Shown here: piece by piece, positions 6,804-56,768 of the stretch
Numbering within the stretch: position 1 is the first letter of the stretch
Layout: each line of letters starts with the position of its first letter
Notes under the pieces: generated by a model
The model's input: the letters and a program-made list of their open reading frames with translations, nothing else
Told to the model about the DNA's origin: nothing
Database searches by the model: none
Position numbers and translations under genes: made by a program
From: Eubacteriales bacterium
GTDB taxonomy: Bacteria; Bacillota; Clostridia; Lachnospirales; Lachnospiraceae
Length of the DNA: 57,317 nucleotides
Assembly: GCA_030524585.1 (NCBI GenBank)
Contig: JAUNGJ010000007.1
Location: 1 to 57,317, forward strand
Direction: 5' to 3'

Positions 6804-7820
6804 ATGATAGAAAAGAAGAGAATCCTCCTTCTTGGAACCGGAGGAACGATTGCATGTAAAAAAGGAAAAAACGGATTGGTACCGCTTATGATGGGCGAAG
6901 AACTGCTAACTTATGTTCCTGCTGCAAAAAAATTCTGCCAGGTGGAAGCCATTCAGATTTTAAATGTTGACAGCACCAATATGCATCCCAGGCATTGGCA
7001 GATGATTGCCGGGGCAATTGAAGAGCATTATAACTATTATGACGGATTTGTGGTCTGCCATGGAACAGATACGATGGCTTATACGGCGGCTGCATTGTCC
7101 TATTTAATTCAGCATTCAAAAAAACCTGTAATTATTACTGGCGCGCAGCGTCCTATTGATCTGGATGTTACAGATGCAAGGACGAATCTGCTGGACAGCC
7201 TTCGCTTTGCCTGCTGTGAACGTGCGCATGGAGTAAATATTGTTTTTGATGGCAAAGTAATTGCGGGAACAAGGGGCAAAAAAGTTCGCTCCAAAAGTTA
7301 TAATGCATTTTCCAGTATTAATTTTCCTTATCTGGCAGTCATTCAGGATGAGCACATTCTGTTTTATATAGATGATAAAGGTCAGGATAAAGAGAATGTT
7401 CGATTTTATCATGAGCTTGATGACAGAGTTGCACTTCTGAAACTGATTCCGGGCTTAGATTCCGGGGTGTTGGATTATCTTGCAGAGCATTTTGATGCGG
7501 TGGTGATAGAATCTTTTGGTGTGGGTGGACTTCCTGCCTATGAAAAGAATGACTTTTACCATGCGATTGAACGGTGGATTTCTCTGGGAAAGATTGTTGT
7601 GATGTCAACTCAGGTGACGCAGGAAGGCAGCAATATGTCTGTCTATGAAGTGGGAAGAAAGGTAAAGCATATCTTTGACATGATAGAGTCTTATGATATG
7701 ACGCTGGAGGCAGCTATAACAAAATTGATGTGGGTGCTGGGGCAGACGAAAGAACCGGAGAAGGTTAGACGATTATTTTATCAGACGATTAATCACGATA
7801 TTTTGTGGAAGGAAGGGTAG
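6804..7820 (+). CDS. ansA: L-asparaginase, type I (cytoplasmic)
   Basis: A 338-residue asparaginase with no signal peptide. LLLGTGGTIACKKGKNGLVP near residue 8 carries the nucleophilic threonine, and VCHGTDTMAYTAAALSY near 85 the second active-site Thr-Asp pair. ITGAQRP and DARTNLLDSL follow at about 115 and 125, and STQVTQEGSNMSVYEVG near 272 belongs to the C-terminal subdomain. It hydrolyses L-asparagine to aspartate and ammonia, which fits amino-acid use by an anaerobe. The length matches type I enzymes. It stands alone between two strong terminators. Confidence 0.95.
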   Translation: MIEKKRILLLGTGGTIACKKGKNGLVPLMMGEELLTYVPAAKKFCQVEAIQILNVDSTNMHPRHWQMIAGAIEEHYNYYDGFVVCHGTDTMAYTAAALSYLIQHSKKPVIITGAQRPIDLDVTDARTNLLDSLRFACCERAHGVNIVFDGKVIAGTRGKKVRSKSYNAFSSINFPYLAVIQDEHILFYIDDKGQDKENVRFYHELDDRVALLKLIPGLDSGVLDYLAEHFDAVVIESFGVGGLPAYEKNDFYHAIERWISLGKIVVMSTQVTQEGSNMSVYEVGRKVKHIFDMIESYDMTLEAAITKLMWVLGQTKEPEKVRRLFYQTINHDILWKEG

Positions 7821-14617: not shown

Positions 14618-15886
14618 ATGACAGTCGTTATAGGCTTTTTTATATTACTGATGCTGGGACTGCCCATTTTTTCGGTGGTTTTGATCTGTGCATCGGCGGG
14701 CGTGCTTCTATATAGCAGTGTCAGCCTGCAGGTGATTTCACAGCAGATATTTACAGGATTGGATTCCACAACATTGCTTGCGGTGCCATTTTTTATTGTG
14801 GCAGGTGCAATTGCATCGAAGGGAAAGACGTCGGAGTGTCTGCTGAAATGTATGAATGTAATTTTTGGACGGCTGCCCGGAGGTCCGGTTATTGCTACCA
14901 TTGCAACCTGTGCGTTTTTTGCGGCGATCAGCGGCTCGTCGATGGCTACGGTAGTTGCGGTCGGAGGTCTGATGATTCCGGCGTTAAAAGAAGAAGGATA
15001 TCCGGAAGAGATGAACGTAGGCGCCGTTTGTTCCGGGGGAACCCTTGGAATCTTGATTCCGCCAAGCGCCCCGATGGTCATGTTCTGTGTGGCCATGGGA
15101 ACTTCGGTGGGGAAACAGTTTATGGCGGGATTTGTTCCGGGAATTCTGGTGGCCATAGCATGGTGTATTTATGTGCTCCTGAAATGTTCGAAAGATAAGC
15201 TTGGCTCTCGTGTACGGTATACGGGGCAGGAGGCCCTGAAGATTTTTATCCAGGGGATTCCGGCGCTTTTGTTCCCGGTGATCGTTCTGGGATCGATCTA
15301 CAGCGGGTGGGCGACGCCGACAGAGGCGGCGGCAATTTCTACCATTTATGTGCTGCTTATTGAGAAATTTGTTTACAAAACGCTTAAATTCCAGAATGTG
15401 GTTCAGTATTTCTATGACGGCGTTGTGCAGGCGGCCACCCTTCTGTTGATTATCGGTTCTGCCACAGCATTAAGCTATCTGATCACGACCAAACAGATTC
15501 CGGCGATGGCTGTTGAAGCAATTTCGAATCTGGTCAGCTCACAGGCAATGCTGATACTGGTGGTTATGATTGCGCTGTTCATTGCCGGATGCTTTGTTGA
15601 TACGATTGCGCTGATCGTCATCCTGGCGCCTATTCTGGTGCCGTTGCTGAATCTGTATCAGGTAGATCTGATTCATTTTGGGATCATGGCCGTTCTGGCT
15701 TCCCAGGTGGGATATATTTCACCGCCCTTTGGAACGAATCTGTTTGTTACGATGCAGGTTTCGGGCAAGAATTTTGGATTTGTGGCAAAATCAATCATTC
15801 CCTATATTCTCATTCTGATCGTAATGACGTTACTGATCTGTTTTGTGCCGCAGATTTCATTATTCCTGCCTGGCTTGATGAAATAA
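14618..15886 (+). CDS. dctM: TRAP transporter large permease (DctM)
   Basis: A 422-residue membrane protein with about 12 hydrophobic helices. Family signatures are FFIVAGAIASKG, GRLPGGPVIATIATCAFFAAISGSSMATVVAVGGLMIPALKEEGY and LGILIPPSAPMVMF in the first half, and GWATPTEAAAISTIYVLL in the second, with QVGYISPPFGTNLFV near the end. It carries out sodium-coupled uptake of the ligand handed over by DctP. Position between dctQ and the MmgE/PrpD gene ties the ligand to those enzymes. Confidence 0.95.
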   Translation: MTVVIGFFILLMLGLPIFSVVLICASAGVLLYSSVSLQVISQQIFTGLDSTTLLAVPFFIVAGAIASKGKTSECLLKCMNVIFGRLPGGPVIATIATCAFFAAISGSSMATVVAVGGLMIPALKEEGYPEEMNVGAVCSGGTLGILIPPSAPMVMFCVAMGTSVGKQFMAGFVPGILVAIAWCIYVLLKCSKDKLGSRVRYTGQEALKIFIQGIPALLFPVIVLGSIYSGWATPTEAAAISTIYVLLIEKFVYKTLKFQNVVQYFYDGVVQAATLLLIIGSATALSYLITTKQIPAMAVEAISNLVSSQAMLILVVMIALFIAGCFVDTIALIVILAPILVPLLNLYQVDLIHFGIMAVLASQVGYISPPFGTNLFVTMQVSGKNFGFVAKSIIPYILILIVMTLLICFVPQISLFLPGLMK

Positions 15887-30262: not shown

Positions 30263-32194
30263 ATGAGTAAATATGAACCGTTATTTCAACCATTAATGAT
30301 AGGGAGAATGGAAATAAAGAACCGAATAATATTTTCGCCTATGACAACTTTTCTGACCGATGTGGATGATACACTTTCGCAAGCGTCGATTGCTTATTTT
30401 GAGGCGCGGGCCAAAGGAGGAGCGGGGATGCTGATTACAGAAGCCTGTTTTATTGATCCGAATGAAAATGCCAATTCCATGGGATTAAATTTTCAATCCA
30501 AACGTGGAACGGTACAATTTGCCCGGTTAGCAGACGTTGCCCATCGGTATGGGGCAAAATTGTGTATTCAGGTCAGTGCAGGGAGTGGACGCACAGCGTC
30601 GCCTGAGCAGGGTCAGATTCCTTACAGTGCTTCTGCAGTGCCGGCTTTATCTAGTCCGAAAATAATTTGCCGTGAATTGACAAAGGAAGAGATCGGACAA
30701 ATTATCCAAAAAATTACCGAATCTGCTATGAAAGCTGTAATTGCTGGCGCAGATGCGATTGAAATTCATGCACATAATGGATATCTTCTGGATCAGTTTA
30801 TTTCTCCTCAGTGGAATATTCGTACAGATGAGTATGGTGGAGAGCTGGAAAATCGCATGAGAATGCCGAAAGAACTGATTTCTTCTATACGTGCTACAGT
30901 GGGACCGTCAATTCCTATTATTTTCCGTATCTCTGTAGATCACAAGTATCCGGGCGGACGTACACTAGAAGACACAGAAGAGATTTTGAAAGCTTTGGAG
31001 CCGGTTGTAGATGCTTTTGATGTTGATTTTGGAGCATATGAAAGCATTGATTATATGTTTCCTTCTTATTACATGGGAAGTGCCTGTAGCGTAGACTTGG
31101 CTAAAGCTGTGCGTAAGATGGGAATACAAAAGCCCATTATGAATGCAGGTAATCATACGCCGGATAGCGCTTTGGAGTTTGTCCGCAATGGAACGCTGGA
31201 TGCGGTAATGTTTGGAAGAAGTATGCTGGCGGATCCAGATTTACCGAATAAGTTAAGAGAGGACAGAGACAAGGAAGTGAAACCATGTATCCGCTGCAAT
31301 GAATTTTGCTTAAAAGGAGTTCTCACCCGAACTGGAATCCGGTGCGCAGTGAATGCAGAAGCTGGAGAAGAAATATATCAGAAGTTGGAGCCAGCGACTA
31401 ATAAGAAAAAGGTGTTGGTTATTGGAGGAGGACCAGGAGGCTGCGAAGCGGCAATAACGGCGGCTATGAGAGGTCATGAAGTTGTTCTTTGTGAGGCAAA
31501 TGAAGCGTTGGGGGGAATGCTTCAGGTTGCGGCAACGCCGGATTTTAAAATGCAGTTAAAGAATTTAATAACATGGGATGAAGTCATGTTGAAAAAGTAT
31601 GGAGTGGATGTCCGGTTAGGGGAACGAGTGGATGAAAATAGTGAAATCTTGAGCAAAGTGGATGAAATAATAGTAGCAACCGGTGCGAAAGAGCTTGTTC
31701 CGCCAATTCCTGGAATTGATTCTCCGGGTGTGATTCGAATTGCGGATGCCCATCGAAATCAGGATAAGTTGAAAGGAGAGAATATTGTAATTGCAGGCGG
31801 AGGTTTGTCGGGGTGCGATTTTGCTATAGAGCTGGTCGATAAAGGCAAAAAGGTAACGATAATAGAGATGAGAGAAAAAGTTGCAGCAGATGTATTCCCG
31901 ATTAATGCCATAACTCTCTTTAGAACACTGGGACAAAAGCAGGTGACGATGATGACGGGTGCAAAAATCACCTCAATGGAGAGCGGAAAAGTGATTGTTC
32001 AGACTACAGAAGGAGAAAAATGTGTAGAAGCGGATACAATTGTTTTGGCGCTGGGTATGAGGGCAGATAAAGATCTGGCAGAAAAGCTTCGGATAAAATT
32101 TGGCACGCGTGTTCGTAAAATTGGAGATTGTGAAAAACCTGGAAAAGTTGGAAATGCAGTAAGAGAAGGATACTATGCAGGAGCAACCGTATAA
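30263..32194 (+). CDS. FMN/FAD/Fe-S enoate reductase (BaiCD / 2,4-dienoyl-CoA reductase family)
   Basis: A 643-residue fusion enzyme. The N-terminal FMN barrel starts EPLFQPLMIGRMEIKNRIIFSPMTTF and has the hallmark EIHAHNGYLLDQFISPQWN with RTDEYGGELENRMR near 170-200. The 4Fe-4S motif is CIRCNEFC plus a later Cys in IRCAVNAEAG near 340. The FAD/NAD domain begins KVLVIGGGPGGCEAAITAAMRGHEV near 375 and has a second GGGLSGCDFAIEL. Electrons pass from NAD(P)H through FAD and the cluster to FMN and on to an activated C=C bond. Length and layout match BaiCD/BaiH. It is controlled with the SDR by the divergent TetR. The exact substrate is unknown. Confidence 0.92.
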   Translation: MSKYEPLFQPLMIGRMEIKNRIIFSPMTTFLTDVDDTLSQASIAYFEARAKGGAGMLITEACFIDPNENANSMGLNFQSKRGTVQFARLADVAHRYGAKLCIQVSAGSGRTASPEQGQIPYSASAVPALSSPKIICRELTKEEIGQIIQKITESAMKAVIAGADAIEIHAHNGYLLDQFISPQWNIRTDEYGGELENRMRMPKELISSIRATVGPSIPIIFRISVDHKYPGGRTLEDTEEILKALEPVVDAFDVDFGAYESIDYMFPSYYMGSACSVDLAKAVRKMGIQKPIMNAGNHTPDSALEFVRNGTLDAVMFGRSMLADPDLPNKLREDRDKEVKPCIRCNEFCLKGVLTRTGIRCAVNAEAGEEIYQKLEPATNKKKVLVIGGGPGGCEAAITAAMRGHEVVLCEANEALGGMLQVAATPDFKMQLKNLITWDEVMLKKYGVDVRLGERVDENSEILSKVDEIIVATGAKELVPPIPGIDSPGVIRIADAHRNQDKLKGENIVIAGGGLSGCDFAIELVDKGKKVTIIEMREKVAADVFPINAITLFRTLGQKQVTMMTGAKITSMESGKVIVQTTEGEKCVEADTIVLALGMRADKDLAEKLRIKFGTRVRKIGDCEKPGKVGNAVREGYYAGATV

Positions 32195-37837: not shown

Positions 37838-39892
37838 ATGGAACCGAGATTAGAACCTTTATTTACACCGTGGAAGATAGGAAACTGTGAGATCAAGAAC
37901 AGAATCGTACTGACTTCTATGGGCGGAACCGATTTGTTTGGGTGGATGGAGAAAAACCACTTTGATAAGGAAGGAGCCAATTTTATCTTAGAGGTAGCGA
38001 AGAACAATGCGGGACTTGTGCTGCCGGGCTGTCAGCCGGTTTACAATCCGATGTTTGGACAATGGCTGCACAAGAATGACAGGATGTACAAGGAGCTGGC
38101 GGCATGGATGCCGGAATTTCACAAGACAGGAGCGAAACTGTTTGTGCAGCTGACAGCCGGCTTCGGACGTTCCTTTACCGTTAGCGAGATGATGGAGAAG
38201 CTGTATACAAATAAGGCTCTGAGAGTGCTGTCGAAGCCGTTTATGGATCTTGACAAGATTACCGCTTCGGCGAGCCCTTCGCCCAATCGCTGGTCGGATA
38301 AGATTCCTTCCAGGGAAATGACGGTTGCCGAGATCAGGGAGTTTGTAGAAGCATTTGCCAGAAGCGCAAGAAAATTAAAGGACGCCGGAGTGGACGGCGT
38401 GGAAGTTCATGCGGTTCATGAGGGGTATTTGCTGGATCAGTTTACGTTGAAGTATGTGAATCACAGAACGGATCAGTACGGCGGGTCCTTTGAGAACAGA
38501 TATCGTTTTGCAGTAGAGATTGTGAAAGCGATTAAAAAGGCCTGTGGGCAGGACTTTCCGGTATCCTTACGCTACAGTGTGGTATCAAAGACCAAGGGCT
38601 TCCGGGAAGGCGCGCTGCCGGGAGAAGAGTTTGTTGAGGCCGGGCGGGATATGGAAGAGTCTGAGAAGGCGGCAAGATACCTGCAGGATGCCGGATACGA
38701 TATGCTGAACTGTGATAATGGAACCTATGATGCCTGGTATTGGGCGCATCCGCCTATTTATATGCCGGAGAACTGTAATCTGGCAGATGTGGAGCATATT
38801 AAGAAGTTTGTGGATATTCCGGTGGTCTGTGCGGGGCGAATGGATCCGCGGGTAGCAGCAGACTCCATAAAAGCAGGGAAGCTGGACGGCGCCGGATTTG
38901 CAAGGAACTTTCTGGCTGACCGGGCCTGGGTAACCAAGCTTATGAACGGCCAGGAGGAAGAGATCCGTCCCTGCATCCTGTGTCACAGCGGATGCTTTAA
39001 TATGTGCCATTATAAAGGGGTCCCCAATGACCAGGAGCTTTCCGACAGCCTGCATCTTGCAAGATGCGCTGTGAATGCGGAGACCATGCAGACGGATAAG
39101 CACTATGTGAAAAAGACGGATTCCCCGAAGAAAGTGATCATCATCGGCGGCGGTATCGGCGGCATGGAGGCGGCGCGGGTGTTGAAGCTTCGCGGGCACG
39201 AACCGGTAATTTACGAAAAATCAGATACACTTGGGGGAACCTTTATTGCGGCAAGTGCGGAGTCCTATAAGGGAAAGCTGCGAGATCTGTTGGCGTGGTA
39301 CAGACGTCAGATGGAAAAGCTGGGGATTGAGATACATCTGGGCGAAGAGGTAAAGGATTTAGCCAGATTTGCAGGAGCTGAAATTATCGTTGCCACCGGG
39401 GCAACAGCGAGAGTGCTGAAAAAGGTTCCCGGACACGAGAAAATGATCGAGGCCTGCGAATATCTGACCGGTACGCCGGTTGGCAATAAGGTGGCGGTCG
39501 TAGGCGGCGGCCTGACCGGAAGTGAGATTGCCTATGAGCTTGCGCTGCAGGGAAAGCAGCCGGTAATCGTGGAAATGAAGGATGACCTGGTGTCGCAGAA
39601 GGGAGTCTGTCTGGCGAACAGCTCATATTTAAGAGAATGGTTTGCGTTACATAAGATTCCGGTATATTTGGAGACCAGTTTAAAAGAAGTGCGGGATGAT
39701 AAGATCATCTGCCGTACCAGAGACGGGAAAGAGATTGAGATTGCCTGTGATTCCGTAATCAGCTCGGCGGGATATATCCCAACGCCGCTGGCAAAGGAAG
39801 GAAAGAAGATCCACCTGGTTGGGGACTGCAGGCAGGTAGGCAATCTGCGCACGGTTATCTGGAGGGCATATGAGGTGGCAATGAAGATTTAA
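37838..39892 (+). CDS. FMN/FAD/Fe-S enoate reductase (BaiH/FldZ-like)
   Basis: A 684-residue fusion of the 2-enoate reductase family. The FMN barrel opens EPLFTPWKIGNCEIKNRIVLTSMGG and has HAVHEGYLLDQFTLKYVNHRTDQYGGSFENRYRF near 190-225. The cluster motif is CILCHSGC, then further Cys including ARCAVNAE near 410. KKVIIIGGGIGGMEAARVLKLRGHEP near 430 and AVVGGGLTGSEIAYELAL near 555 are the FAD and NAD sites. Relative to the 30263 paralogue it has longer insertions. Twenty bases later come the aconitase X genes, so it probably reduces the C=C bond that AcnX forms by dehydration. GGAAGGGGGA precedes the start. Confidence 0.9.
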   Translation: MEPRLEPLFTPWKIGNCEIKNRIVLTSMGGTDLFGWMEKNHFDKEGANFILEVAKNNAGLVLPGCQPVYNPMFGQWLHKNDRMYKELAAWMPEFHKTGAKLFVQLTAGFGRSFTVSEMMEKLYTNKALRVLSKPFMDLDKITASASPSPNRWSDKIPSREMTVAEIREFVEAFARSARKLKDAGVDGVEVHAVHEGYLLDQFTLKYVNHRTDQYGGSFENRYRFAVEIVKAIKKACGQDFPVSLRYSVVSKTKGFREGALPGEEFVEAGRDMEESEKAARYLQDAGYDMLNCDNGTYDAWYWAHPPIYMPENCNLADVEHIKKFVDIPVVCAGRMDPRVAADSIKAGKLDGAGFARNFLADRAWVTKLMNGQEEEIRPCILCHSGCFNMCHYKGVPNDQELSDSLHLARCAVNAETMQTDKHYVKKTDSPKKVIIIGGGIGGMEAARVLKLRGHEPVIYEKSDTLGGTFIAASAESYKGKLRDLLAWYRRQMEKLGIEIHLGEEVKDLARFAGAEIIVATGATARVLKKVPGHEKMIEACEYLTGTPVGNKVAVVGGGLTGSEIAYELALQGKQPVIVEMKDDLVSQKGVCLANSSYLREWFALHKIPVYLETSLKEVRDDKIICRTRDGKEIEIACDSVISSAGYIPTPLAKEGKKIHLVGDCRQVGNLRTVIWRAYEVAMKI

Positions 39893-48899: not shown

Positions 48900-49268
48900 A
48901 TGAAGAATGAACAGATACACGAACATACTCATGGACCGGGACACGAGCATGCTCACGAGCACATTCATGGGCATTCTCATAGCCATGAAGCTCATAAGCA
49001 TGTGCACAGCATGGAAGAGAAAAAGGCGGTCATTAACCGTCTGTCCAAGGCGATCGGACATCTGGAGGCCGTTAAGCGAATGGTGGAGCGGGATGAAGAC
49101 TGCAGTGAGGTTCTGATTCAGCTGGCGGCGGTGCGCTCCGCAATCAATAATACGGGAAAGGTGATACTGAAAAATCATATCAATCACTGTATTGTCGAGG
49201 CGGTAGAAGAGGGAGATCAGGAGGCCATTGAGCTTTTGAATCAGGCCATTGATAAGTTTATGAAATAA
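48900..49268 (+). CDS. CsoR/RcnR-family metal sensor with His-rich N-terminus
   Basis: A 122-residue all-helical repressor. Residues about 7-37 form a His-rich tail (HEHTHGPGHEHAHEHIHGHS and beyond, at least 13 His). The core reads VINRLSKAIGHLEAVKRMVERDEDCSEVLIQLAAVRSAINNTGKVILKNHINHCIVEA. It keeps the C-(x24-25)-H-x3-C copper-site pattern (Cys in EDCSE, His and Cys in NHINHC). RcnR/InrS-type nickel sensors use N-terminal His as well, so Ni, Co or Cu is possible. It lies directly upstream of the ACS-like/CooC-like operon, divided from it by a terminator. Metal identity is inferred, not shown. Confidence 0.88.
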   Translation: MKNEQIHEHTHGPGHEHAHEHIHGHSHSHEAHKHVHSMEEKKAVINRLSKAIGHLEAVKRMVERDEDCSEVLIQLAAVRSAINNTGKVILKNHINHCIVEAVEEGDQEAIELLNQAIDKFMK

Positions 49269-49305
49269 AACAGATATATGCGGTAAGTAATAGATATAGA
49301 CATAG

Positions 49306-49360
49306 ACGGATTGCTAAATTCGTGCCAAAATGACACGGATTTAACAATCCGTTTCTTTTT
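49306..49360 (+). terminator. Strong terminator after the metal sensor
   Basis: ACGGATTGCTAAATTCGTG pairs with CACGGATTTAACAATCCGT (18 of 19 positions, allowing G-U) over a 9-base loop and ends in TTTCTTTTT. It separates the sensor gene from the operon at 49421. Confidence 0.88.
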
Positions 49361-49420
49361 GTATACAGTTCTCTCGTGATACCATAACTGTGAGAAAATA
49401 ATGGTCTGCGGGAGGAAGAT

Positions 49421-50137
49421 ATGAAACTATTTGATGAAATTATCCGACAGACAAAAGAGGTTCTGGCAGGTCAGACATTTCGTTCCTTTTCTTATGAGGC
49501 GGAATTGGCATGGCCATGTGGGAAATCTCTGGAAATGGTGCTTCTTAGGGACGCGGCCTTTGAGCTGGGAGGAGATGGAAAGGATTCGGTAAATTATACT
49601 TGTATTACAGATACCCGGGGGTTGATCCCGAAGAATGAGATTTTATTGTACGGACCGGATCTTTCAGAAATCAGAGGAGACGTTTCATTTGCGCGGATTA
49701 CCCATTTGTCGGTAAAAGATATGGATGAGATGGAGAGTGATGAACTGTACCGCTTTATCCGGGAGATGGAATATGTGAAATATCATATGTTTCCTGAGGG
49801 ATATATGGTGCGGGTTTCCGCAAAAAGCAGCAGAGAGCAGGCAAGGGTCAGCAGACAGGCGATTCGGCGGGGAATCAGCTTTGCGCAGATTGGAAATGCC
49901 TACATAGAAAACTATCTGAAGAATCCTAAAGTGAAGGCCGTACAGATGATATTTGTCACGGACCGGGAGTCTCTGAGAAAATTGCAGAAGCTTGCGGGGC
50001 AGGCGAATGAGATCACCCTGGCGCTTGACCATATTCTGCAGGGGCTGGAGATGAACTGTGCAGCCTGCGATCTGAAAGCAATCTGTACGGAGGTAGAAGG
50101 GATGCGGAAGATGCACAGAGAACAAATGAGGAGGTAA
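49421..50137 (+). CDS. Orphan acetyl-CoA synthase (ACS/CdhC)-like domain protein
   Basis: A 238-residue cytoplasmic protein. LEMVLLRDAAFELGGDGKDSVNYTCITDTRGLIPKNEILLYGPDLSEIRGDVSFARITHLSV (about 38-100), YVKYHMFPEGYMVRVSAKSSREQARVSRQAIRRGISFAQIGNAYIENYLKNPKVKAVQMIFVTD (about 112-175) and HILQGLEMNCAACDLKAICTEVEGMRKMHRE at the end are the pattern of a conserved segment of acetyl-CoA synthase / CdhC beta subunits. The C-terminal catalytic part that holds cluster A is absent. NCAACDLKAIC offers three Cys for metal binding. It starts the operon with CooC-like, 2-hydroxyacyl-CoA dehydratase-like and activator genes. GGGAGGAAG precedes the ATG. The function is not known. Confidence 0.8.
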   Translation: MKLFDEIIRQTKEVLAGQTFRSFSYEAELAWPCGKSLEMVLLRDAAFELGGDGKDSVNYTCITDTRGLIPKNEILLYGPDLSEIRGDVSFARITHLSVKDMDEMESDELYRFIREMEYVKYHMFPEGYMVRVSAKSSREQARVSRQAIRRGISFAQIGNAYIENYLKNPKVKAVQMIFVTDRESLRKLQKLAGQANEITLALDHILQGLEMNCAACDLKAICTEVEGMRKMHREQMRR

Positions 50138-50141
50138 AAGG

Positions 50142-50897
50142 ATGGGACAGAACACGAAGATCATAGCGGTAGTGGGAAAAGGCGGTGTCGGAAAAACCGC
50201 GTTGGCAGCAGCGCTGGTAAGAAGTCTGGTGGAGAACCGGCCGGGATCAAGGATTCTTGCTATTGACGCAGATCCGGCGGTAGGGCTTGCAACAGCGCTG
50301 CAGGTACAGGTGAAGGAAACGCTGGATGATATCCGTCAGGAGATTACAAAAGAAGTGGGGACGGATTTGAAGGATGTGCAGGATATTTTATCAGAAGCCA
50401 GATTCCGGCTGCTGGATATGATGGAGGAAAAGAGGGATTTTGCATTTGTGGCTATCGGAAGACCGGAATCATCCGGCTGCTATTGTGCGATTAATTCCTA
50501 TCTGCGGGATACGATCACCGTACTGGCAGAACAGTTTGATTATGTTGTCATTGACGGAGAGGCCGGAATTGAACAGGTAAACCGGAGAGTTATGGAGAAG
50601 GTGAGCCATCTTCTTCTGGTCAGTGACCAGAGCCGTAAGGGGATTCAGGTAATCCGCACCATCCAGGGAGTGGCAAAAGACCTGGTGCAGTATGAGAGAC
50701 TTGGCGTGGTGATCAACCGGGTTCCTGTAGGAGGTATCCGGATTCCGGAGCCGGTAGAACATGCAGAGACTATTTACATTACGGAGGATCACTCCCAGAT
50801 GATGAACGATATAGAGGGAAAGAGCGTCTTTGAGCTTCCAGAGGATTCGGCGCTGATTACAGGGGCGGAGGAAATTCTTCGGAAACTGGACGTTTAA
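50142..50897 (+). CDS. CooC/AcsF-like nickel-maturation ATPase
   Basis: A 251-residue MinD-type P-loop ATPase. The deviant Walker A is VVGKGGVGKTALAAALVR near 10-28, switch I includes IDADPAVGLATAL near 47, and YVVIDGEAGIEQVNRRV near 128 is Walker B/switch II. GRPESSGCYCAINSYLRDTI near 112 holds the CxC motif that in CooC binds Ni(II) at the dimer interface. CooC and AcsF insert nickel into CODH and ACS. Here it lies 4 bases after the ACS-like gene and 19 before dehydratase-family genes, with no CODH nearby. I infer metal loading of the ACS-like protein or of a dehydratase-like partner. Confidence 0.88.
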   Translation: MGQNTKIIAVVGKGGVGKTALAAALVRSLVENRPGSRILAIDADPAVGLATALQVQVKETLDDIRQEITKEVGTDLKDVQDILSEARFRLLDMMEEKRDFAFVAIGRPESSGCYCAINSYLRDTITVLAEQFDYVVIDGEAGIEQVNRRVMEKVSHLLLVSDQSRKGIQVIRTIQGVAKDLVQYERLGVVINRVPVGGIRIPEPVEHAETIYITEDHSQMMNDIEGKSVFELPEDSALITGAEEILRKLDV

Positions 50898-50916
50898 CAA
50901 GGAGGGATGAAAATAT

Positions 50917-52101
50917 ATGAAGGACTTGAAGCATTTGTATTATCTGGAGAATCTTCTCACAGAGGCAAATAATGATCTGGTCAGGCAGGCCCAGGACGCG
51001 GGAAGGATTGCGGTTGGAAATGTGTGTAGCCTGATTCCGGAGGTACTGATGGACCTTCCGGGCTGTTTCTCAGTCAGGCTGCGGGCGCCCAGAACCGGGT
51101 CCATAGAAATCGGGACCTATTATATGACTAGTCTTCTCTGTGAGTTCTGCCGGGCGTTGGTGGAGCGTGCGGTAGAGGGCGGATATGAATTTCTGGATTG
51201 TATCATGGCGCCGGATGCATGTGCGGCGATGAACCGGGCGGTAGAGAACATGGAGCTTTTAAGGACCTGTAATAAGGAAAAGTTTTTTATCACCTATTCG
51301 GATGTGCCGATGAAGTCGGATGAGACTGCGCTGAAGCACTATGTGAAGCAGATGCGTATCCGCGTGTTGGAACCCCTTCGGGATGTGTACGGAATTGATG
51401 TATCCGATGAGGCCCTCCGCAAGACGGTGGAGCGGCATAACCGGATGTGCAGATTGATTCGCAGGATTGGAGAATTTCGTAAGGAAGAAAATCCCCGGAT
51501 CACTGGCTATGAGTTTCATGTGCTCTGTCTGGCAACCTATGTCTGTCCAAAGGAATCATTGATTCCGATTTTAGAGGAGACGCTGGAAGAAATAAAAACG
51601 CGGGAGCCGGAGGCGAAAAATCCCTTCCGGGCGCGGGTGGTATTGGCCGGTTCTGAGATCGATGACCTTGATTTCATTAAGCTGATTGAGGAAAACGGGG
51701 CGATGGTGGTGGCGGACAGACATTGTTTTGGCTCCTTCCCGGGAAGGGACGAGATCCCGTTGAATGAAAAAGAGGATATGCTGACCCAGATCTGCAGGCA
51801 TTACATTACCGTTGGACAGTGTCCGCGTTATATGAATACGGAGAAGATCAATGAGCGGAAAGACTATGTCGACAGGCTGGCAAGAGAGTACGGAGCGGAC
51901 GGAATCATTTATGAACAGATGAAATTCTGCGATTACTGGGGGTATGAACGCATGGCTGCAAGCTATATCATGCATCACGATTACGGATACCCGGTTCTGT
52001 CGCTAGACCGGCCTTATGTGGTGGGAACGTCCGGCCAGCTCCGCACCCGGGTGCAGGCATTTGTAGAAAGTCTTGAGATTAAGAAGATACAGAGGAGGTA
52101 A
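50917..52101 (+). CDS. 2-Hydroxyacyl-CoA dehydratase family subunit A (HgdB/BcrC-like)
   Basis: A 394-residue protein of the benzoyl-CoA reductase / 2-hydroxyglutaryl-CoA dehydratase family (PF06050). GYEFLDCIMAPDACAAMNRAVEN near 90 carries one Cys-rich loop typical of cluster ligands; RARVVLAGSEIDDLDFIKLIEENGAMVVADRHCFGS near 245-280 is the second-domain signature, and GADGIIYEQMKFCDYWGYERM near 325 includes another candidate ligand Cys. Such subunits hold a 4Fe-4S or, in double-cubane proteins, an 8Fe-9S cluster. It follows the CooC-like gene and pairs with the 512-residue subunit. No CoA-transferase or ligase is near. The substrate is unknown. Confidence 0.85.
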   Translation: MKDLKHLYYLENLLTEANNDLVRQAQDAGRIAVGNVCSLIPEVLMDLPGCFSVRLRAPRTGSIEIGTYYMTSLLCEFCRALVERAVEGGYEFLDCIMAPDACAAMNRAVENMELLRTCNKEKFFITYSDVPMKSDETALKHYVKQMRIRVLEPLRDVYGIDVSDEALRKTVERHNRMCRLIRRIGEFRKEENPRITGYEFHVLCLATYVCPKESLIPILEETLEEIKTREPEAKNPFRARVVLAGSEIDDLDFIKLIEENGAMVVADRHCFGSFPGRDEIPLNEKEDMLTQICRHYITVGQCPRYMNTEKINERKDYVDRLAREYGADGIIYEQMKFCDYWGYERMAASYIMHHDYGYPVLSLDRPYVVGTSGQLRTRVQAFVESLEIKKIQRR

Positions 52102-52104
52102 GCA

Positions 52105-53643
52105 ATGGGAAAGAAGATAAACAGCGAAAAACTTGGTAATTTCTATTATGGAAATAAGACCAAGAAGCGCAGAGAATGGCGCGGCGTGACCGATACCTGG
52201 TACGATTATACCCGTTGGCTTGCCAACTGGAAGGTCATGGCCAAATTTATGATGAAGCCGGCAAATTTAAAGGGCTTTTTCCGTTACCGCTGGATGGGAA
52301 GCTACCTGGCGGTGCCGGATTTTGTAGACCGTCATACGGAAGGACTGCGCGGGCCCCAGCTTCGGATTGCCCACAAGGAATTTGACTTTATTGTGGAGCA
52401 TGTGTGCGAGACCATTGGAAATCTGTTCCGGGCAGATCCGGAGTGTGGGAATGATGTGGAATTTAATAAGAAGATCGTCGTGTTTGATGAGAATATGATG
52501 TCACAGATCATGAATGGTTTTCCGAACCTTCAGATGGTATGCCGGGAAATTCCGGTGGTATATACGCCGTCTACCGTTCTTCAGGAAGGGGTGCTGCATT
52601 ATATTGATGTGGCCGAGGAATTTGGACTGCCCTCCGACGTCTGTCCGATGCCGGCGGCAGAGCTTGGATGCGCTATTGACGATGATTTTCCGCAGGTTGG
52701 CGTCTGCGCGGTAAACTGTAATACGACCTGTGACGGAAGTCTGATGGGAAATGGTGTGGAGGCCAGGAGATTTGATATTCCGACCTTCCAGCTTGCTGTG
52801 CCGATCCGGCACATGCAGGAGAGCGTACAGGAGTACGGAGCAGAGGAGATAAAGAATTGCATTCATTTTATTGAAGAACAGACGGGAGAGAAATTTGATT
52901 GGGATCACTATTTCAAATGTATGAAAACATTTAATGGCGAGACAAAGCTGTTTCGGGAGTGGCTGGATATGTCCAGGACCGATTATCCGCAGATTATCGG
53001 CAATAATGTGGCGCTTTACCGGGATGCCTACTATCAGGTTGGCGGAGGCCGCGACGAAAGATTTCTGGAAAATGACCGGGAGATCACGGAGCTTGGATAT
53101 CAGGGCTATGAGAATAAAACATCCTGTGTATCGGAAGTTCGCCATCGCGCCATTTTGTGGGGTGTACAGGCACAGTATTATACGGCGTTTCCGATTTGGC
53201 TGCAGAATTGCTGGGGAATCCTGCCGCTGATCGACATGCTCAGTCTTACCTCCACCAGCTATTACAGCGAGGATGATAAGGAACAGGCCTATCTGGATAT
53301 GGCAGATCTGTATATGAAGATGAATATGCGGAACCGTTCCAACGGAGGATACGAGGTGGGAGTGGATGATCTCTGGAGGTTCTGTGAAGAATTTCGCGCG
53401 GATATGGTCATTATGTATGAACATATCGGGTGTAAAGCGATGGCCGGATATCATGGGATTTTTGAAGAGCAGGCAAGAGAACGGGGGATTCATCTGATCT
53501 GGGTAACTCATGGATTGATGGATCCGAGAAAAGCTTCCAGAAAAGATATGCGCGGGGAGGTAAACCGCTATATGCGGGCTGTTCTTCAGGAAGAACCGCT
53601 GGATCCGACATTGGAAGACTTTGCGGATGAGAATAACTGGTAG
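52105..53643 (+). CDS. 2-Hydroxyacyl-CoA dehydratase family subunit B
   Basis: A 512-residue protein of the same PF06050-type superfamily, longer than its partner. The first 100 residues are basic and Trp/Tyr-rich. Cys-rich segments are LPSDVCPMPAAELGCAIDDDFPQVGVCAVNCNTTCDGSLMG near 180-218, where CAVNCNTTCDG is the candidate cluster or substrate loop, and IMYEHIGCKAMAGYHGIFEEQARERGI near 430, the second-domain signature. It begins 3 bases after the previous stop, so the two are an obligate pair. The activator gene is 18 bases downstream. No known dehydratase of defined substrate resembles it closely enough for me to name one. Confidence 0.85.
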   Translation: MGKKINSEKLGNFYYGNKTKKRREWRGVTDTWYDYTRWLANWKVMAKFMMKPANLKGFFRYRWMGSYLAVPDFVDRHTEGLRGPQLRIAHKEFDFIVEHVCETIGNLFRADPECGNDVEFNKKIVVFDENMMSQIMNGFPNLQMVCREIPVVYTPSTVLQEGVLHYIDVAEEFGLPSDVCPMPAAELGCAIDDDFPQVGVCAVNCNTTCDGSLMGNGVEARRFDIPTFQLAVPIRHMQESVQEYGAEEIKNCIHFIEEQTGEKFDWDHYFKCMKTFNGETKLFREWLDMSRTDYPQIIGNNVALYRDAYYQVGGGRDERFLENDREITELGYQGYENKTSCVSEVRHRAILWGVQAQYYTAFPIWLQNCWGILPLIDMLSLTSTSYYSEDDKEQAYLDMADLYMKMNMRNRSNGGYEVGVDDLWRFCEEFRADMVIMYEHIGCKAMAGYHGIFEEQARERGIHLIWVTHGLMDPRKASRKDMRGEVNRYMRAVLQEEPLDPTLEDFADENNW

Positions 53644-53661
53644 ACAAAGGAGGGCGAAGTA

Positions 53662-54462
53662 ATGAGCAAATATTTTGGAGGATGTGACGTCGGTTCTACT
53701 TATACAAAATGTGTGATCATTGATGAGAAAGGAAACATGGCTGCAAATACCACTATAAGGAGTAAAATTAACGCGGAAAAGAGCTCGGCGCTTGCTCTTC
53801 AGGAGACGGTTGCCCAGGTTCCAGGGCTTTCATCGGCGAAGGAGCTTACTTATCTGGTGGGAACCGGTTATGGGCGCAATAAAGTTCCGTCAGCGGATGA
53901 GAATATCAGCGAGATCAGCTGTCATGCAATGGGCGTGCATGTAACCGATCCCGGTGTACGTGCGATTATTGATATTGGCGGACAGGATATTAAAGGAATT
54001 GCAATTGATACGGATGGAACGGTGAAGAATTTTGCGATGAATGACAAGTGTGCGGCCGGAACCGGACGGTTTTATGAGGCGATGGCGAATGCCTTTGAAT
54101 TGTCGCTGGAAGAGTTCTCTAATCTGTCGCTTTCAGCAAAGAATGTGATTCCGATTACCGCCCAGTGTACTGTTTTCGCAGAAAGTGAAGTCATCACGCT
54201 GGTAGGGGAAGGAAAACCGATGAACGAGAATGCGGCGGGAATCCAGAAATCGGTGGCAAAAAGATGCTTTGTTATGGCAAAAAAGGCGGGAGCCGTAAGC
54301 AGTATTACCCTGACCGGAGGCTGTGCCAAAAACGCGGGACTCAAGAAGGCAATTGAACAGGTGCTGAAGCTGAAAGTCATAGAGCTTGCGATCGATCCGC
54401 AGCTAATGGGAGCTTTGGGAGCGGCAGAATACGCAAGACAAAAGGGAATGGCAAAGTCATAG
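53662..54462 (+). CDS. BadF/HgdC-type ATP-dependent activator
   Basis: A 266-residue ASKHA-fold ATPase. GGCDVGSTYTKCVIIDEKG opens, then VGTGYGRNKVPSADE, IIDIGGQDIKGIAIDTDG near 108, NDKCAAGTGRFYEAMA near 130 and TAQCTVFAESEVITL near 168. The two Cys (NDKC and TAQC) are the ligands of the 4Fe-4S cluster shared across the activator homodimer. LTGGCAKNAGLKKAI and LMGALGAAEYA are the C-terminal ATPase motifs. It injects a low-potential electron into the dehydratase-family partner at the cost of ATP. All key residues are intact, so the system should be functional. Confidence 0.95.
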   Translation: MSKYFGGCDVGSTYTKCVIIDEKGNMAANTTIRSKINAEKSSALALQETVAQVPGLSSAKELTYLVGTGYGRNKVPSADENISEISCHAMGVHVTDPGVRAIIDIGGQDIKGIAIDTDGTVKNFAMNDKCAAGTGRFYEAMANAFELSLEEFSNLSLSAKNVIPITAQCTVFAESEVITLVGEGKPMNENAAGIQKSVAKRCFVMAKKAGAVSSITLTGGCAKNAGLKKAIEQVLKLKVIELAIDPQLMGALGAAEYARQKGMAKS

Positions 54463-54481
54463 CATGGAAGGAGGAACGTCT

Positions 54482-54649
54482 GTGAAAAAGATAAAAAAGA
54501 TAATAAAGTTTGTACTGATTGCATTTGTAATTGTGTTTTTCCTGAGCTGGATCATTTATTTCTTCAATCTGGATATGAAAGCGTCCGTGTATTTGAAAAA
54601 GTTGATGGATAAGGTCTATGATATGAGGAAGAGAGACCGGAGATTATAA
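54482..54649 (+). CDS. Small single-pass membrane peptide
   Basis: A 55-residue peptide from a GTG with GGAAGGAGGAA upstream (which itself contains an in-frame ATG at 54464). It has a Lys-rich N-terminus (KKIKKII), a hydrophobic helix at about 8-28 (FVLIAFVIVFFLSWIIYFF) and a charged tail ending RKRDRRL. Charge on both ends suggests an inner-membrane peptide. It is 20 bases after the activator gene and before the operon terminator, so it likely belongs to the same transcript. I recognise no family; it may tether or stabilise the redox complex. Confidence 0.65.
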   Translation: MKKIKKIIKFVLIAFVIVFFLSWIIYFFNLDMKASVYLKKLMDKVYDMRKRDRRL

Positions 54650-54673: not shown

Positions 54674-54707
54674 AACAAAAGCAGCTTCGCATGAGGCTGC
54701 TTTTGTT
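54674..54707. terminator. Bidirectional terminator after the ACS-like/dehydratase operon
   Basis: AACAAAAGCAGC pairs perfectly with GCTGCTTTTGTT around a 10-base loop. It lies between convergent genes and overlaps the tetR stop, and A- and T-rich stem edges allow use in both directions. Confidence 0.85.
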
Positions 54708-55254
54708 ATGCTTCCGGCCATGTGTCCTTCAGATAATCGGGCATGGCTTCGTAAAAGATGTCCGCCATCTGCTGCGGCGTCAGGATATCCGGCTCATTCA
54801 GCCAGTCCTGCAGGATGCCTACGCAGCCATGACAATAATGGCTGATGACATAGCGGTCATGGATTGACAGAACTTCGGATTTTGTGGACACTAGATAACG
54901 GTTCTCCACAATACTAAAGGAATAGGCAAACAGGAATCCGGAATGTGAATTCTGCCCGGAAGAGCGGAATGCCTTGCGGTAGTAGGTCAGATTCTGGCTG
55001 ATTGCAATGAACATATTTTCCAGAAATTCTTTCCAGTCCCGGCAGATCTTAGGGCCGATCAAATGCTCGGCAATCTCCATGGAATGGTAGTTCAATACAT
55101 CGTATTTATCCCGGAAATGGCGGTAAAACGTGGATTTGGATACCCTGCTTTCCCGGATGATCATCTCGACGGTTATTTTTTCGAAAGGAGTCGTACGCAT
55201 CAATCTGCTGAAGGACTGCCATATATGCTGTTTGGTAGTTGATGAGGAACCCAT
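54706..55254 (-). CDS. TetR family regulator next to MATE
   Basis: A 182-residue TetR-like regulator. TKQHIWQSFSRLMRTTPFEKITVEMIIRESRVSKSTFYRHFRDKYDVLNYHSMEIAEHLI is the DNA-binding domain, and the rest resembles the TetR C-terminal DhaS/YxaF-type bundle. GGGAGGG lies before the ATG at 55254. It is divergent from the MATE transporter gene with 134 bases between, the usual arrangement for a repressor of a drug efflux pump. Confidence 0.9.
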   Translation of the reverse strand: MGSSSTTKQHIWQSFSRLMRTTPFEKITVEMIIRESRVSKSTFYRHFRDKYDVLNYHSMEIAEHLIGPKICRDWKEFLENMFIAISQNLTYYRKAFRSSGQNSHSGFLFAYSFSIVENRYLVSTKSEVLSIHDRYVISHYCHGCVGILQDWLNEPDILTPQQMADIFYEAMPDYLKDTWPEA

Positions 55255-55322
55255 AAAACCCTCCCACAATGGATCTGTTAATAAATTAATTATACAGAAT
55301 CCGACGTTTTTTTACAATTGTG

Positions 55323-55351
55323 TTGCAAACAATTTTATATTGTTTTACCAT
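55323..55351 (+). promoter_or_regulatory. Possible promoter of the MATE gene
   Basis: TTGCAA (55323-55328), a 17-base spacer and TACCAT (55346-55351). The -10 is poor. ACAATTGT at 55314-55321 and AACAATTTTATATTGTTT form overlapping inverted repeats around it that could be the TetR operator. Confidence 0.4.
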
Positions 55352-55388
55352 TGGATGTAGATGCTGTAGAGAAAAGGATGAGATTGAG

Positions 55389-56768
55389 ATGAATAGGTTG
55401 AAGAAATTATTTGCGCCTGTAGATATGACCGTTGGCAGGCCCTGGGAGGATATCGCCGTTTTTACTGTGCCGATGCTGATCGGCAATGTTGCACAGCAGC
55501 TTTATAATACGGTGGACAGTGTGGTGGTCGGTCAATTTGTGGGCGATAACGCTCTGGCGGCGGTTGGAAGCGCCGGACCGATTTTAAATTTATTGATTGT
55601 GCTTTTTGTGGGAATCAGCGTGGGAGCCAGTATTATGGTCTCCCAGTATTTGGGCGCAAAAAACCGGGAGGCGCTGTCCCAGACCATCGGAACCTCTATT
55701 GTGCTGACAGGAATCGCGTCGCTGTTTGTTATGGTGGCGGCTACACTGGCGGCGAGACCGCTGCTGGAGCTTTTGAGCACTCCGGATACTATCATCGATT
55801 GGTGTACCTCTTATCTGAGGATTCTCTTCATCGGTGTTGCAGGTCTGGCTTATTATAATATTTTGAGCGGGATACTCAGAGGCCTTGGTGATTCGATGTC
55901 GGCGCTGCTGTATCTGCTGGTTGCCAGTGGTCTGAATATTGTACTGGATTTACTGTTTGTGGCGAAGTTGAATATGGGAGTTTCAGGCGTGGCGCTGGCC
56001 ACGGCAATTGCCCAGGGACTTTCTGCGCTTCTTTGCCTTCGGAGATTGACGAAGCTGAAGGAGCTGTTTGAGTTAAAGTGGAAGTATGTACGGCTGTCAA
56101 AGAACCATGCATACAATGTTGTCCGGCTGGGAGTGCCGTCTGGTTTGACCCAGGCAATTCTTTCTATGGCGATGCTGGTTGTACAGTCATTAACGAACAG
56201 CTTTGGAGAACTGTTTATTGCTGCAAATGTCATCGTTATGCGTGTGGATGGTTTTGCCATGATGCCGAATTTTTCCTTTGGTACGGCAATGACGACCTAT
56301 GCAGGACAGAATGTGGGAGCGGGAGAGTATGAGCGTGTATCCAAAGGGGCGAAGCAGGGAACGATGATGGCGATGGGAACTTCAGGGGTGATCGTCGTGC
56401 TGATTCTTTTATTTGGCAGAAATCTGATGAGAATTTTTACAAATACACCGGAGCTGGTTACGCTGAGTATGAATATGATGCGGATCCTGGCTGTGGGATA
56501 CGTCGCCGTAGCAGTAACCCAGACCCTGTCCGGAGTAATGCGCGGAGCTGGAGATACCATGACTCCCATGTGGATTTCTCTGGTTTCTACCATTGTAATT
56601 CGCGTGCCGGTGGCATACGGATTGGTATACTTAACCAGAACACCGCAGCTTCCCCAGGGAGAGAGAGCCTGTATCTTCATTTCGCTGCTGATTTCCTGGG
56701 TAATGGGGGCTGTGCTTACAAGCATTTTTTATAAGAGAGGAAAATGGAAGGAGAAAGCAGTGAAATAA
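55389..56768 (+). CDS. MATE family multidrug efflux transporter
   Basis: A 459-residue protein with 12 hydrophobic helices in two related halves. IAVFTVPMLIGNVAQQLYNTVDSVVVGQFVGDNALAAVGSAGPILNLLIVLFVGISVGASIMVSQYLGA is the MATE N-half opening, and FGTAMTTYAGQNVGAGEYERVSKGAKQG lies in the second half. It exports cationic drugs or metabolites driven by Na or proton gradients. The ATG at 55389 is used because the upstream ORF extension has no membrane-protein character. It is probably controlled by the divergent TetR. Confidence 0.93.
   Translation: MNRLKKLFAPVDMTVGRPWEDIAVFTVPMLIGNVAQQLYNTVDSVVVGQFVGDNALAAVGSAGPILNLLIVLFVGISVGASIMVSQYLGAKNREALSQTIGTSIVLTGIASLFVMVAATLAARPLLELLSTPDTIIDWCTSYLRILFIGVAGLAYYNILSGILRGLGDSMSALLYLLVASGLNIVLDLLFVAKLNMGVSGVALATAIAQGLSALLCLRRLTKLKELFELKWKYVRLSKNHAYNVVRLGVPSGLTQAILSMAMLVVQSLTNSFGELFIAANVIVMRVDGFAMMPNFSFGTAMTTYAGQNVGAGEYERVSKGAKQGTMMAMGTSGVIVVLILLFGRNLMRIFTNTPELVTLSMNMMRILAVGYVAVAVTQTLSGVMRGAGDTMTPMWISLVSTIVIRVPVAYGLVYLTRTPQLPQGERACIFISLLISWVMGAVLTSIFYKRGKWKEKAVK

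Follow-up and report, generated by a model that had tools for sequence, protein, structure and literature searches.

A 57,317-nucleotide stretch of DNA from a Eubacteriales bacterium of the Lachnospiraceae (contig JAUNGJ010000007.1 of assembly GCA_030524585.1; hereafter the window) raises the question of what is done by an operon that joins a relative of acetyl-coenzyme A (CoA) synthase (ACS), a CooC-like ATPase and a pair of dehydratase-type subunits with their activator. The operon is a run of six genes on the + strand, encoding a CdhC-like protein, the CooC-like ATPase, two subunits here called DhA and DhB, the activator and a small membrane peptide, with internal gaps of 4, 19, 3, 18 and 1 nt (Table 1). 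The initial annotation, in which all genes were placed correctly, had read them as one undescribed, nickel-linked, ATP-driven redox system. We think it on balance probable that the operon encodes an ATP-driven reductase working at very low potential, which would belong to the double-cubane family, have the layout of class I benzoyl-CoA reductase, and include an ACS-derived subunit and a CooC-type metallochaperone. The novelty lies in the fixed partnership of a double-cubane pair with CooC and an ACS-derived protein.

We found that CooC, DhA, DhB, activator and CdhC-like genes occur together. In a sample of 299 genomes from the same family (298 genera), the CdhC-like gene was detected in 25, one of them by a very weak match with no module around it (G262, E 8.6e-4), and a DhB profile at E <= 1e-60 detected 24 genomes, identical to the 24 that remain with a CdhC-like gene (hypergeometric P 6e-36). 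All five genes were present in 19 of the 23 relatives' loci, the other four being truncated by contig ends; the small peptide was undetected in six of the 19. Named genomes were scanned with a 103-residue CooC sub-alignment, and at least 441 stretches encode a relative of this region, not all of them necessarily module members; counts for named loci refer to the best 80. These contained CooC (the query) and DhA in 80 cases each, DhB in 76, the activator in 62, the CdhC-like gene in 54 and the peptide in 53, many loci without the peptide ending at a contig boundary. Where at least 2.7 kb followed DhB, activator and CdhC-like genes were both present in 50 of 51 named loci; the sole exception (L103) had no match to either, and its largest downstream frames lay on the opposite strand. 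The commonest gene order was CooC-DhA-DhB-activator-peptide-CdhC-like. The CdhC-like gene is placed first in the window and in the Faecalicatena loci L054 and L055, and L040, L046 and L052 are rearranged too. Module carriers among the named genomes were Lachnospiraceae, Oscillospiraceae, Clostridium, Emergencia, Vallitalea and Treponema, and six contigs were common to the same-family and named-locus sets. Pairwise sequence distances for five genes of the module co-varied across the window and 53 loci (r 0.59-0.94, exceeding all 999 permutations), in a comparison that had no unlinked control gene and part of which species ancestry alone could explain. In the small peptide, N35, D37 and K39 were each kept in at least 97% of 54 sequences. 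A single-sequence scan of genome contigs with the CdhC-like protein gave 80 pattern matches, none of which was a relative. The 1.7-2.6 kb spacers between DhB and the activator in L104, L108 and L116 each contain a reading frame whose product is a P-loop protein with a GVTSAGKTS motif.

The core of the module also exists in a second class of the phylum, where a short CdhC-like frame was found in 6 of the 97 genomes searched. The order in three loci of these deep relatives (L160, L178 and L179) was two acyl-CoA-dehydrogenase-like genes, one or more uncharacterised proteins, DhA, DhB, two activators, CdhC-like and CooC, and L175-L177 are contig fragments carrying the corresponding part. DhA, DhB, activator, CooC and CdhC-like genes are thus the core common to both lineages. 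In L179 (5632-14706), two consecutive DhA-DhB sets and three activators surround a single CdhC-like and a single CooC gene. Two proteins of L160 (14187-15971 and 16003-16686) had no Pfam match at 1e-8; the L160 protein of 594 amino acids (aa) had no relative in PDB at E 1, and its relatives sit before DhA in L178 and L179. The genome of the window itself carries a second module split over two contig ends, with CooC-DhA-DhB and the start of the activator on one (L159 on C5) and the end of the activator, the peptide and the CdhC-like gene on the other (L029 on C109), followed by an old-yellow-enzyme-type flavoprotein, an opposite-strand TetR-type frame (by eye) and a DUF5692 protein. The initial annotation had suggested a search for co-occurrence in Clostridia; the identical sets of genomes and the synteny in many genera indicate one real joined system. 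A second, diverged DhA/DhB pair was also observed beside the module in L031, L034, L065, L080, L081, L084 (on the contig of L031), L090, L113 and L128. It lies on the opposite strand in six of these nine loci and has no CooC or CdhC-like gene of its own; in L031 and L034 its identity to the window pair is ~52% and 37-39%.

Table 1 Genes of the operon and features preceding it, with positions in the window
Feature	Position	Strand	Characteristics
CdhC-like protein, 238 aa	49421..50137	+	ACS middle (A2) domain; C-terminal C213-x2-C216-x5-C222 and H232
CooC-like ATPase, 251 aa	50142..50897	+	MinD/CooC-type; GKGGVGKT (12-19), C113-Y-C115
DhA, 394 aa	50917..52101	+	HGD-D PF06050, E 2.7e-91; C37, C75, C102, C270, C302, C338
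DhB, 512 aa, putative catalytic subunit	52105..53643	+	HGD-D PF06050, E 7.5e-38; C180, C209, C443, plus C201, C369
Activator, 266 aa, BadF/HgdC-type ATPase	53662..54462	+	Acyl-CoA dehydratase activase TIGR00241, E 3.4e-60, above cut-off; C130, C169
Small peptide, 61 aa, apparently single-span membrane	54464..54649	+	One hydrophobic stretch (by eye); N35-x-D37-x-K39
His-rich CsoR/RcnR-family regulator	48900..49268	+	Metal-sensitive repressor PF02583, E 1.1e-26; His-rich N-terminus
Terminator-like hairpin (49335-49352) overlapping promoter-like site (49341-49369)	49335..49369	+	Consensus scan only

The cysteines of DhA and DhB point to double-cubane chemistry. According to extracts from PMC11971306, the double-cubane [8Fe-9S] cluster of BzdN is held by Cys36/73/100/263/293/327 and the catalytic [4Fe-4S] cluster of BzdO by Cys95/128/380. 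When DhA was aligned with BzdN, its best match among solved chains (E 1.8e-28), the six DhA cysteines of Table 1 matched the six double-cubane ligands. After truncated proteins had been removed by length, as for the other residue counts in the named loci, five of the six were present in 77/77 sequences and C270 in 76/77, and all six in the 4/4 deep relatives (three loci). The best solved relative of DhB was the double-cubane cluster protein (DCCP; profile E 3e-9), followed by MbdO (1.1e-7) and BzdO (9.3e-7). Its C180, C209 and C443 align with MbdO cysteines spaced 33 and 254 residues apart, the BzdO ligands being spaced 33 and 252, so that the match to the BzdO ligands is read through the MbdO spacing and not from a direct BzdO alignment. 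These three cysteines were conserved in 70/70, 70/70 and 69/69 sequences, respectively, and in 4/4 deep relatives. Among NCBIfam models, DhA scored higher against the double-cubane model NF040772 (146.4 bits, cut-off 350) than against bzdN (106.6 bits, cut-off 453.8), and DhB reached 45.3 bits against NF040772. Scores of 14.7 out of 448.6 bits for the bzdO model and 159.1 out of 380.2 bits for the bzdQ model place the proteins below the BzdN/O/Q equivalog level. The activator had MbdQ as its best solved relative (E 2.4e-59), then the activators of 2-hydroxyisocaproyl-CoA (8.7e-56) and 2-hydroxyglutaryl-CoA dehydratase (1.5e-53). C130 and C169, present in 55/55 activator sequences and aligned with cysteines of MbdQ, are a pair that we take to be the ligands of an inter-subunit [4Fe-4S] cluster.

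Class I benzoyl-CoA reductases (BzdNOPQ, MbdONQP) share with the module the same six cysteines, the same three catalytic cysteines and an ASKHA activator. They differ from it in having two unlike activators, whereas the window has one and the deep relatives two, and in lacking the CooC-like and CdhC-like proteins; the module has no CoA ligase found beside it and scores far under the NCBIfam equivalog cut-offs. DCCP with its reductase is similar in its double-cubane ligands and single activator, and is the nearest relative of DhB among solved proteins and of DhA in NCBIfam, but it is a homodimer from one gene, whereas the module combines a pair of unlike subunits with CooC-like and CdhC-like proteins and stays under the NF040772 cut-off. 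The choice of DCCP as the nearest precedent was therefore fair (DhB 3e-9; DhA 146 bits), although class I benzoyl-CoA reductase fits the layout of two unlike subunits better. DCCP reduces small molecules in vitro, as stated in extracts from PMC11971306. Taken at the level of sequence, these data support ATP-driven redox chemistry, and the six double-cubane ligands in DhA support the special Fe-S cofactor that had been predicted from the window.

The CdhC-like protein is related to one part of ACS. Against the Pfam family CdhC (PF03598) it scored just under the 24-bit cut-off (23.0 bits, E 7.8e-5), and a profile of 52 CdhC-like members matched ACS structures with E 8.7e-9 (PDB 3git) over ACS residues 331-484, the middle domain. 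Comparison by hhalign with two independently found ACS gave E 4.3e-6 (probability 87%), and with ten ACS, eight of which came from the profile's own matches, E 7.6e-12 (97.5%) over profile columns 33-197. The C213-x2-C216-x5-C222 motif was invariant in 54/54 sequences and in 6/6 deep relatives. In a forced full-length alignment, its three cysteines stand opposite the first three (C-x2-C-x8-C) of six cysteines invariant in 10/10 ACS, which we take to be the A-cluster ligands; beyond residue 197 this correspondence is suggestive only. Because the CdhC-like protein has the middle domain and three cysteines, without the fourth cysteine and the Cys-Gly-Cys motif, it is a trimmed ACS and not an acetyl-CoA synthase, and probably binds an Fe-S or mixed cluster. 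The ACS/CdhC-like assignment of the initial annotation thus stands as homology, reduced to the middle domain of ACS and a short cysteine stub. For the CooC-like ATPase, the best solved relative was CooC 3kje (E 8.1e-12), with whose CYC the CxC motif aligned. The motif was present in 80/80 sequences and 6/6 deep relatives, the Walker A motif GKGGVGKT is present, and module CooC proteins were 28-33% identical to the CooC-like proteins of L155, a locus for carbon monoxide dehydrogenase (CODH) and ACS. The module resembles CODH/ACS with CooC/AcsF in its CooC-type ATPase with CxC and in the homology of the CdhC-like protein to the ACS middle domain, but differs in that its own genome is without CODH or the ACS catalytic domain and the CdhC-like protein is without Cys-Gly-Cys.

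Gene content and order, co-occurrence, homology and the invariant cysteines are read directly from the sequences. From them we infer a path for the electrons, modelled on BzdNO and the activator proposed for it, and also a metal, a complex and a class of substrate. The activator homodimer (53662) would accept electrons from a ferredoxin-like donor, and its ATP hydrolysis would drive them singly into the double-cubane [8Fe-9S] cluster of DhA (50917), from which they would reach the [4Fe-4S] site held by three cysteines in DhB (52105) and reduce the substrate there. The three-cysteine site of the CdhC-like protein (49421), as a truncated ACS, may hold an Fe-S or Ni-Fe-S cluster. AcsF loads metal onto ACS; the CooC-like protein (50142) may likewise supply metal, most probably nickel, to the CdhC-like protein or, by way of this protein, to DhB. 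A membrane anchor for the complex could be provided by the small peptide (54464). The substrate or product would probably be shared, in some Clostridia, with flavin reductases of the old-yellow-enzyme or IsrA-like type. These reductases hint at C=C or ring reduction, whereas in the deep relatives the presence of acyl-CoA-dehydrogenase-like genes hints at CoA-ester substrates.

The nickel question was addressed through the companions of the module. In the draft genome of the organism, which is 91.8% complete, we found no match to CODH or hybrid cluster protein (HCP; PF03063), the ACS C-terminal domain (PF19436), the corrinoid Fe-S protein (PF03599) or NiFe hydrogenase (PF00374), each family queried being matched in some of 14 control genomes. 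Since these enzymes are absent from the draft, its CooC has no known client there, and the statement that CooC occurs here without CODH or full ACS holds in this genome. Among the 24 module genomes, PF19436 was found in one and PF03063 (CODH or HCP) in ten. PF03599 was matched in 14, five of them above the cut-off, and strongly only in G026 (E 2.8e-76), which has an ordinary ACS; the other matches covered at most ~125 of 387 positions, inside larger proteins. Some PF00374 match was found in six, five of which spanned just 69 positions. Proteins of ~370 aa that match the NiFe-hydrogenase large-subunit family only over its first 69 positions were observed at G049:C12, G233:C153, G238:C19, G153:C18 and G081:C19, those of G049, G233 and G238 within ~5 kb of a HypA gene.

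Nickel has been proposed for IsrA-like reductases, according to extracts from PMC10134865. IsrA-like reductases at E <= 1e-100 were present in 19/24 module genomes versus 43/275 others (Fisher P 1.6e-10), and strong HypA matches (E below 1e-20) in 20/24 versus 62/275 (P 3.6e-9); in the genome of the window, all three HypA genes adjoin IsrA-like genes. The 73 genes downstream of 44 loci included seven IsrA-like (Fer4_20), six of the old-yellow-enzyme type and five HypA genes. The isrA-hypAB putative isoprene reductase operon of Acetobacterium wieringae is comparable in joining nickel chaperones with an anaerobic reductase, and the module has relatives of IsrA and HypA beside it or elsewhere in its genomes; the isrA-hypAB operon differs in that its enzyme is an FAD/Fe-S oxidoreductase and its chaperones are HypA/HypB, not CooC. 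From the homology of CooC and the statistical company of HypA and IsrA-like genes, we infer that nickel may take part in the system. A bolder proposal, which we advance only tentatively, is that the module represents a new class of nickel enzyme, in which a trimmed ACS domain, loaded by a CooC of its own, would give a Ni-Fe-S site to an ATP-driven double-cubane reductase with the benzoyl-CoA-reductase fold, so that anaerobes in the gut and other habitats could reduce a very inert substrate such as an arene, an alkene, an ether or even CO2.

Several observations weigh against the proposed reductase and its nickel. The CdhC-like protein ends at residue 238 and has no counterpart of the fourth A-cluster cysteine or of the nickel-binding Cys-Gly-Cys of ACS; its alignment with ACS loses confidence beyond about residue 197, so that the cysteine match comes from the forced alignment. 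Nickel is not an obligatory cargo of CooC-family ATPases. The link to IsrA and HypA consists of genome-wide statistics that ignore shared ancestry, and is suggestive, not proof; of 47 complete loci, only 14 had an IsrA-like or old-yellow-enzyme gene within three genes downstream. The module is also rare beyond the family: among 398 evenly drawn genomes of the phylum (E <= 1e-10), the short CdhC-like gene was found only in the own genome and in G457, and the remaining eight CdhC matches were frames of ACS size (731-748 aa). Finally, two extra DhB cysteines, C201 (61/70) and C369 (69/70), were considered as a hetero-metal site and rejected, since both are missing in the deep relatives.

The best surviving alternative, which we nevertheless regard as unlikely, dispenses with nickel and takes the CooC-like and CdhC-like proteins for Fe-S assembly factors that would build the double-cubane, by fusing two [4Fe-4S] clusters, or the cluster of DhB. 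CooC is an ATPase of the NifH/MinD fold, and NifH reductively fuses two [4Fe-4S] clusters for the P-cluster of nitrogenase. The CooC-like protein matches MinD- and NifH-type models, DhA has the double-cubane ligand set, and the CdhC-like protein retains only cubane-type cysteines and no Ni site, all of which suits such a role; on the other hand, the CxC of the CooC-like protein corresponds to that of CooC, and DCCP is known without CooC. In addition, a double-cubane was reported for BzdNO made in E. coli from a BzdNO-encoding plasmid (extracts from PMC11971306), so the cluster seems not to require such a helper.

More doubtful is the idea that the module matures or reductively activates another enzyme, above all IsrA-like or old-yellow-enzyme reductases. 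That a nickel enzyme can be activated with the help of ATP has a precedent in the activation complex of methyl-coenzyme M reductase, according to extracts from PMC12176620. The enrichment of IsrA-like and HypA genes in module genomes would agree with this, as would the presence of such flavoenzymes shortly downstream in 14 of the 47 complete named loci and next to the second module of the window's genome. However, 43 genomes that do not carry the module have IsrA-like genes all the same, 5 of the 24 that do carry it show none at E <= 1e-100, and the deep relatives are accompanied by acyl-CoA-dehydrogenase-like genes instead.

We consider it improbable that the operon encodes an ordinary dehydratase of 2-hydroxyacyl-CoA, or a reductase of CoA esters, with its CoA partners encoded elsewhere and with CooC and the CdhC-like protein as passengers. 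Dehydratases such as HgdAB/HgdC and HadBC/HadI share with the module a pair of HGD-D fold subunits and an activator, here one of HgdC type, and acyl-CoA-dehydrogenase-like genes adjoin the deep relatives. These dehydratases are accompanied by CoA transferases, whereas no CoA transferase or ligase recurs beside the module. None was found among ten proteins at the operon or ten beyond the window end, the remainder of the window having been scanned in part; no such family occurred at least three times among the 73 downstream genes or at least twice among 62 upstream genes, rarer families being listed in part. The recurring neighbour families shown were flavoenzymes, HypA and a miscellany. The 9.6 kb of contig past the window end hold sugar-metabolism genes, in agreement with the expectation that no CoA partner lies just outside the window. 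The broader statement that no CoA-transferase, ligase or acyl-CoA dehydrogenase gene belongs to the system is upheld for ligases and transferases, but not for acyl-CoA-dehydrogenase-like genes, which accompany the deep relatives. Furthermore, dehydratases are without the double-cubane according to extracts from PMC11971306, yet its six ligands are retained in DhA; and since CooC and CdhC-like proteins accompany DhA/DhB in two bacterial classes, they are hardly passengers.

A non-canonical C1 enzyme that replaces CODH/ACS in Lachnospiraceae through CO2/CO or acetyl-CoA chemistry would explain why CooC and a subunit derived from ACS occur in genomes that have neither CODH nor ACS, but is very improbable, given that the own genome has no PF03599 match and module genomes a strong one only in G026, that the CdhC-like protein is without the nickel-binding Cys-Gly-Cys, and that the neighbour tallies shown contain no recurring family of a C1 pathway. 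In extracts from PMC7000372, 'Ca. Galacturonibacter soehngenii' (Lachnospiraceae) forms acetate from CO2 and has CO dehydrogenase activity with no CODH/ACS genes; this puzzle is a place to test the C1 explanation, and lends no support to the double-cubane reductase.

The genes flanking the operon are not conserved with the module. The His-rich metal sensor, which had been counted as part of the system, ends 152 nt before the operon with a terminator-like hairpin in between; it was rejected as a regulator of the system, a CsoR-type gene being found in only one of the 23 relatives' loci (L046). The HAD, TetR and MATE neighbours were likewise not conserved with the module in these loci, MATE-type genes at 20-38% identity occurring in 3/23. 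Terminator-like hairpins in the scanned stretch numbered four against 0.4 expected, whereas promoter-like sites in the consensus scan (two against 1.9 expected) were not above chance. Immediately 3' of the operon lie a TetR/DhaS-like regulator (54706-55269, - strand) and then a MATE exporter (55320-56768). Elsewhere in the window, two flavoenzymes of the FadH/old-yellow-enzyme type were observed at 30263-32194 and 37838-39892, ~17 and 9.5 kb upstream of the operon; they are near BaiCD and long-form bilirubin reductase (E ~1e-126 and 1e-102, under equivalog cut-offs). A type I asparaginase (6804-7820; TIGR00519, above cut-off) and the large permease DctM of a TRAP transporter (14618-15886) were also observed.

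In open-licence full-text literature we found no description of this gene set and none of a system joining CooC with HGD-D proteins, although an earlier one elsewhere is possible; the available extracts of PMC13056359, PMC10418091, PMC7306483, PMC13101534, PMC13416013 and PMC11574389 describe no such set. As far as that literature reaches, the system can be called undescribed. ATP-driven double-cubane enzymes carry out some of the most demanding reductions outside nitrogenase, and few have been characterised; the conserved gene set described here couples double-cubane chemistry to pieces of acetyl-CoA synthase, itself a nickel enzyme. Should nickel take part here as well, the module would encode a new nickel enzyme, and would show how pieces of ACS were reused. 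The module provides a testable gene set for the unexplained reductive ability of gut anaerobes, and is a candidate to check in Lachnospiraceae that have CO chemistry but no CODH/ACS.

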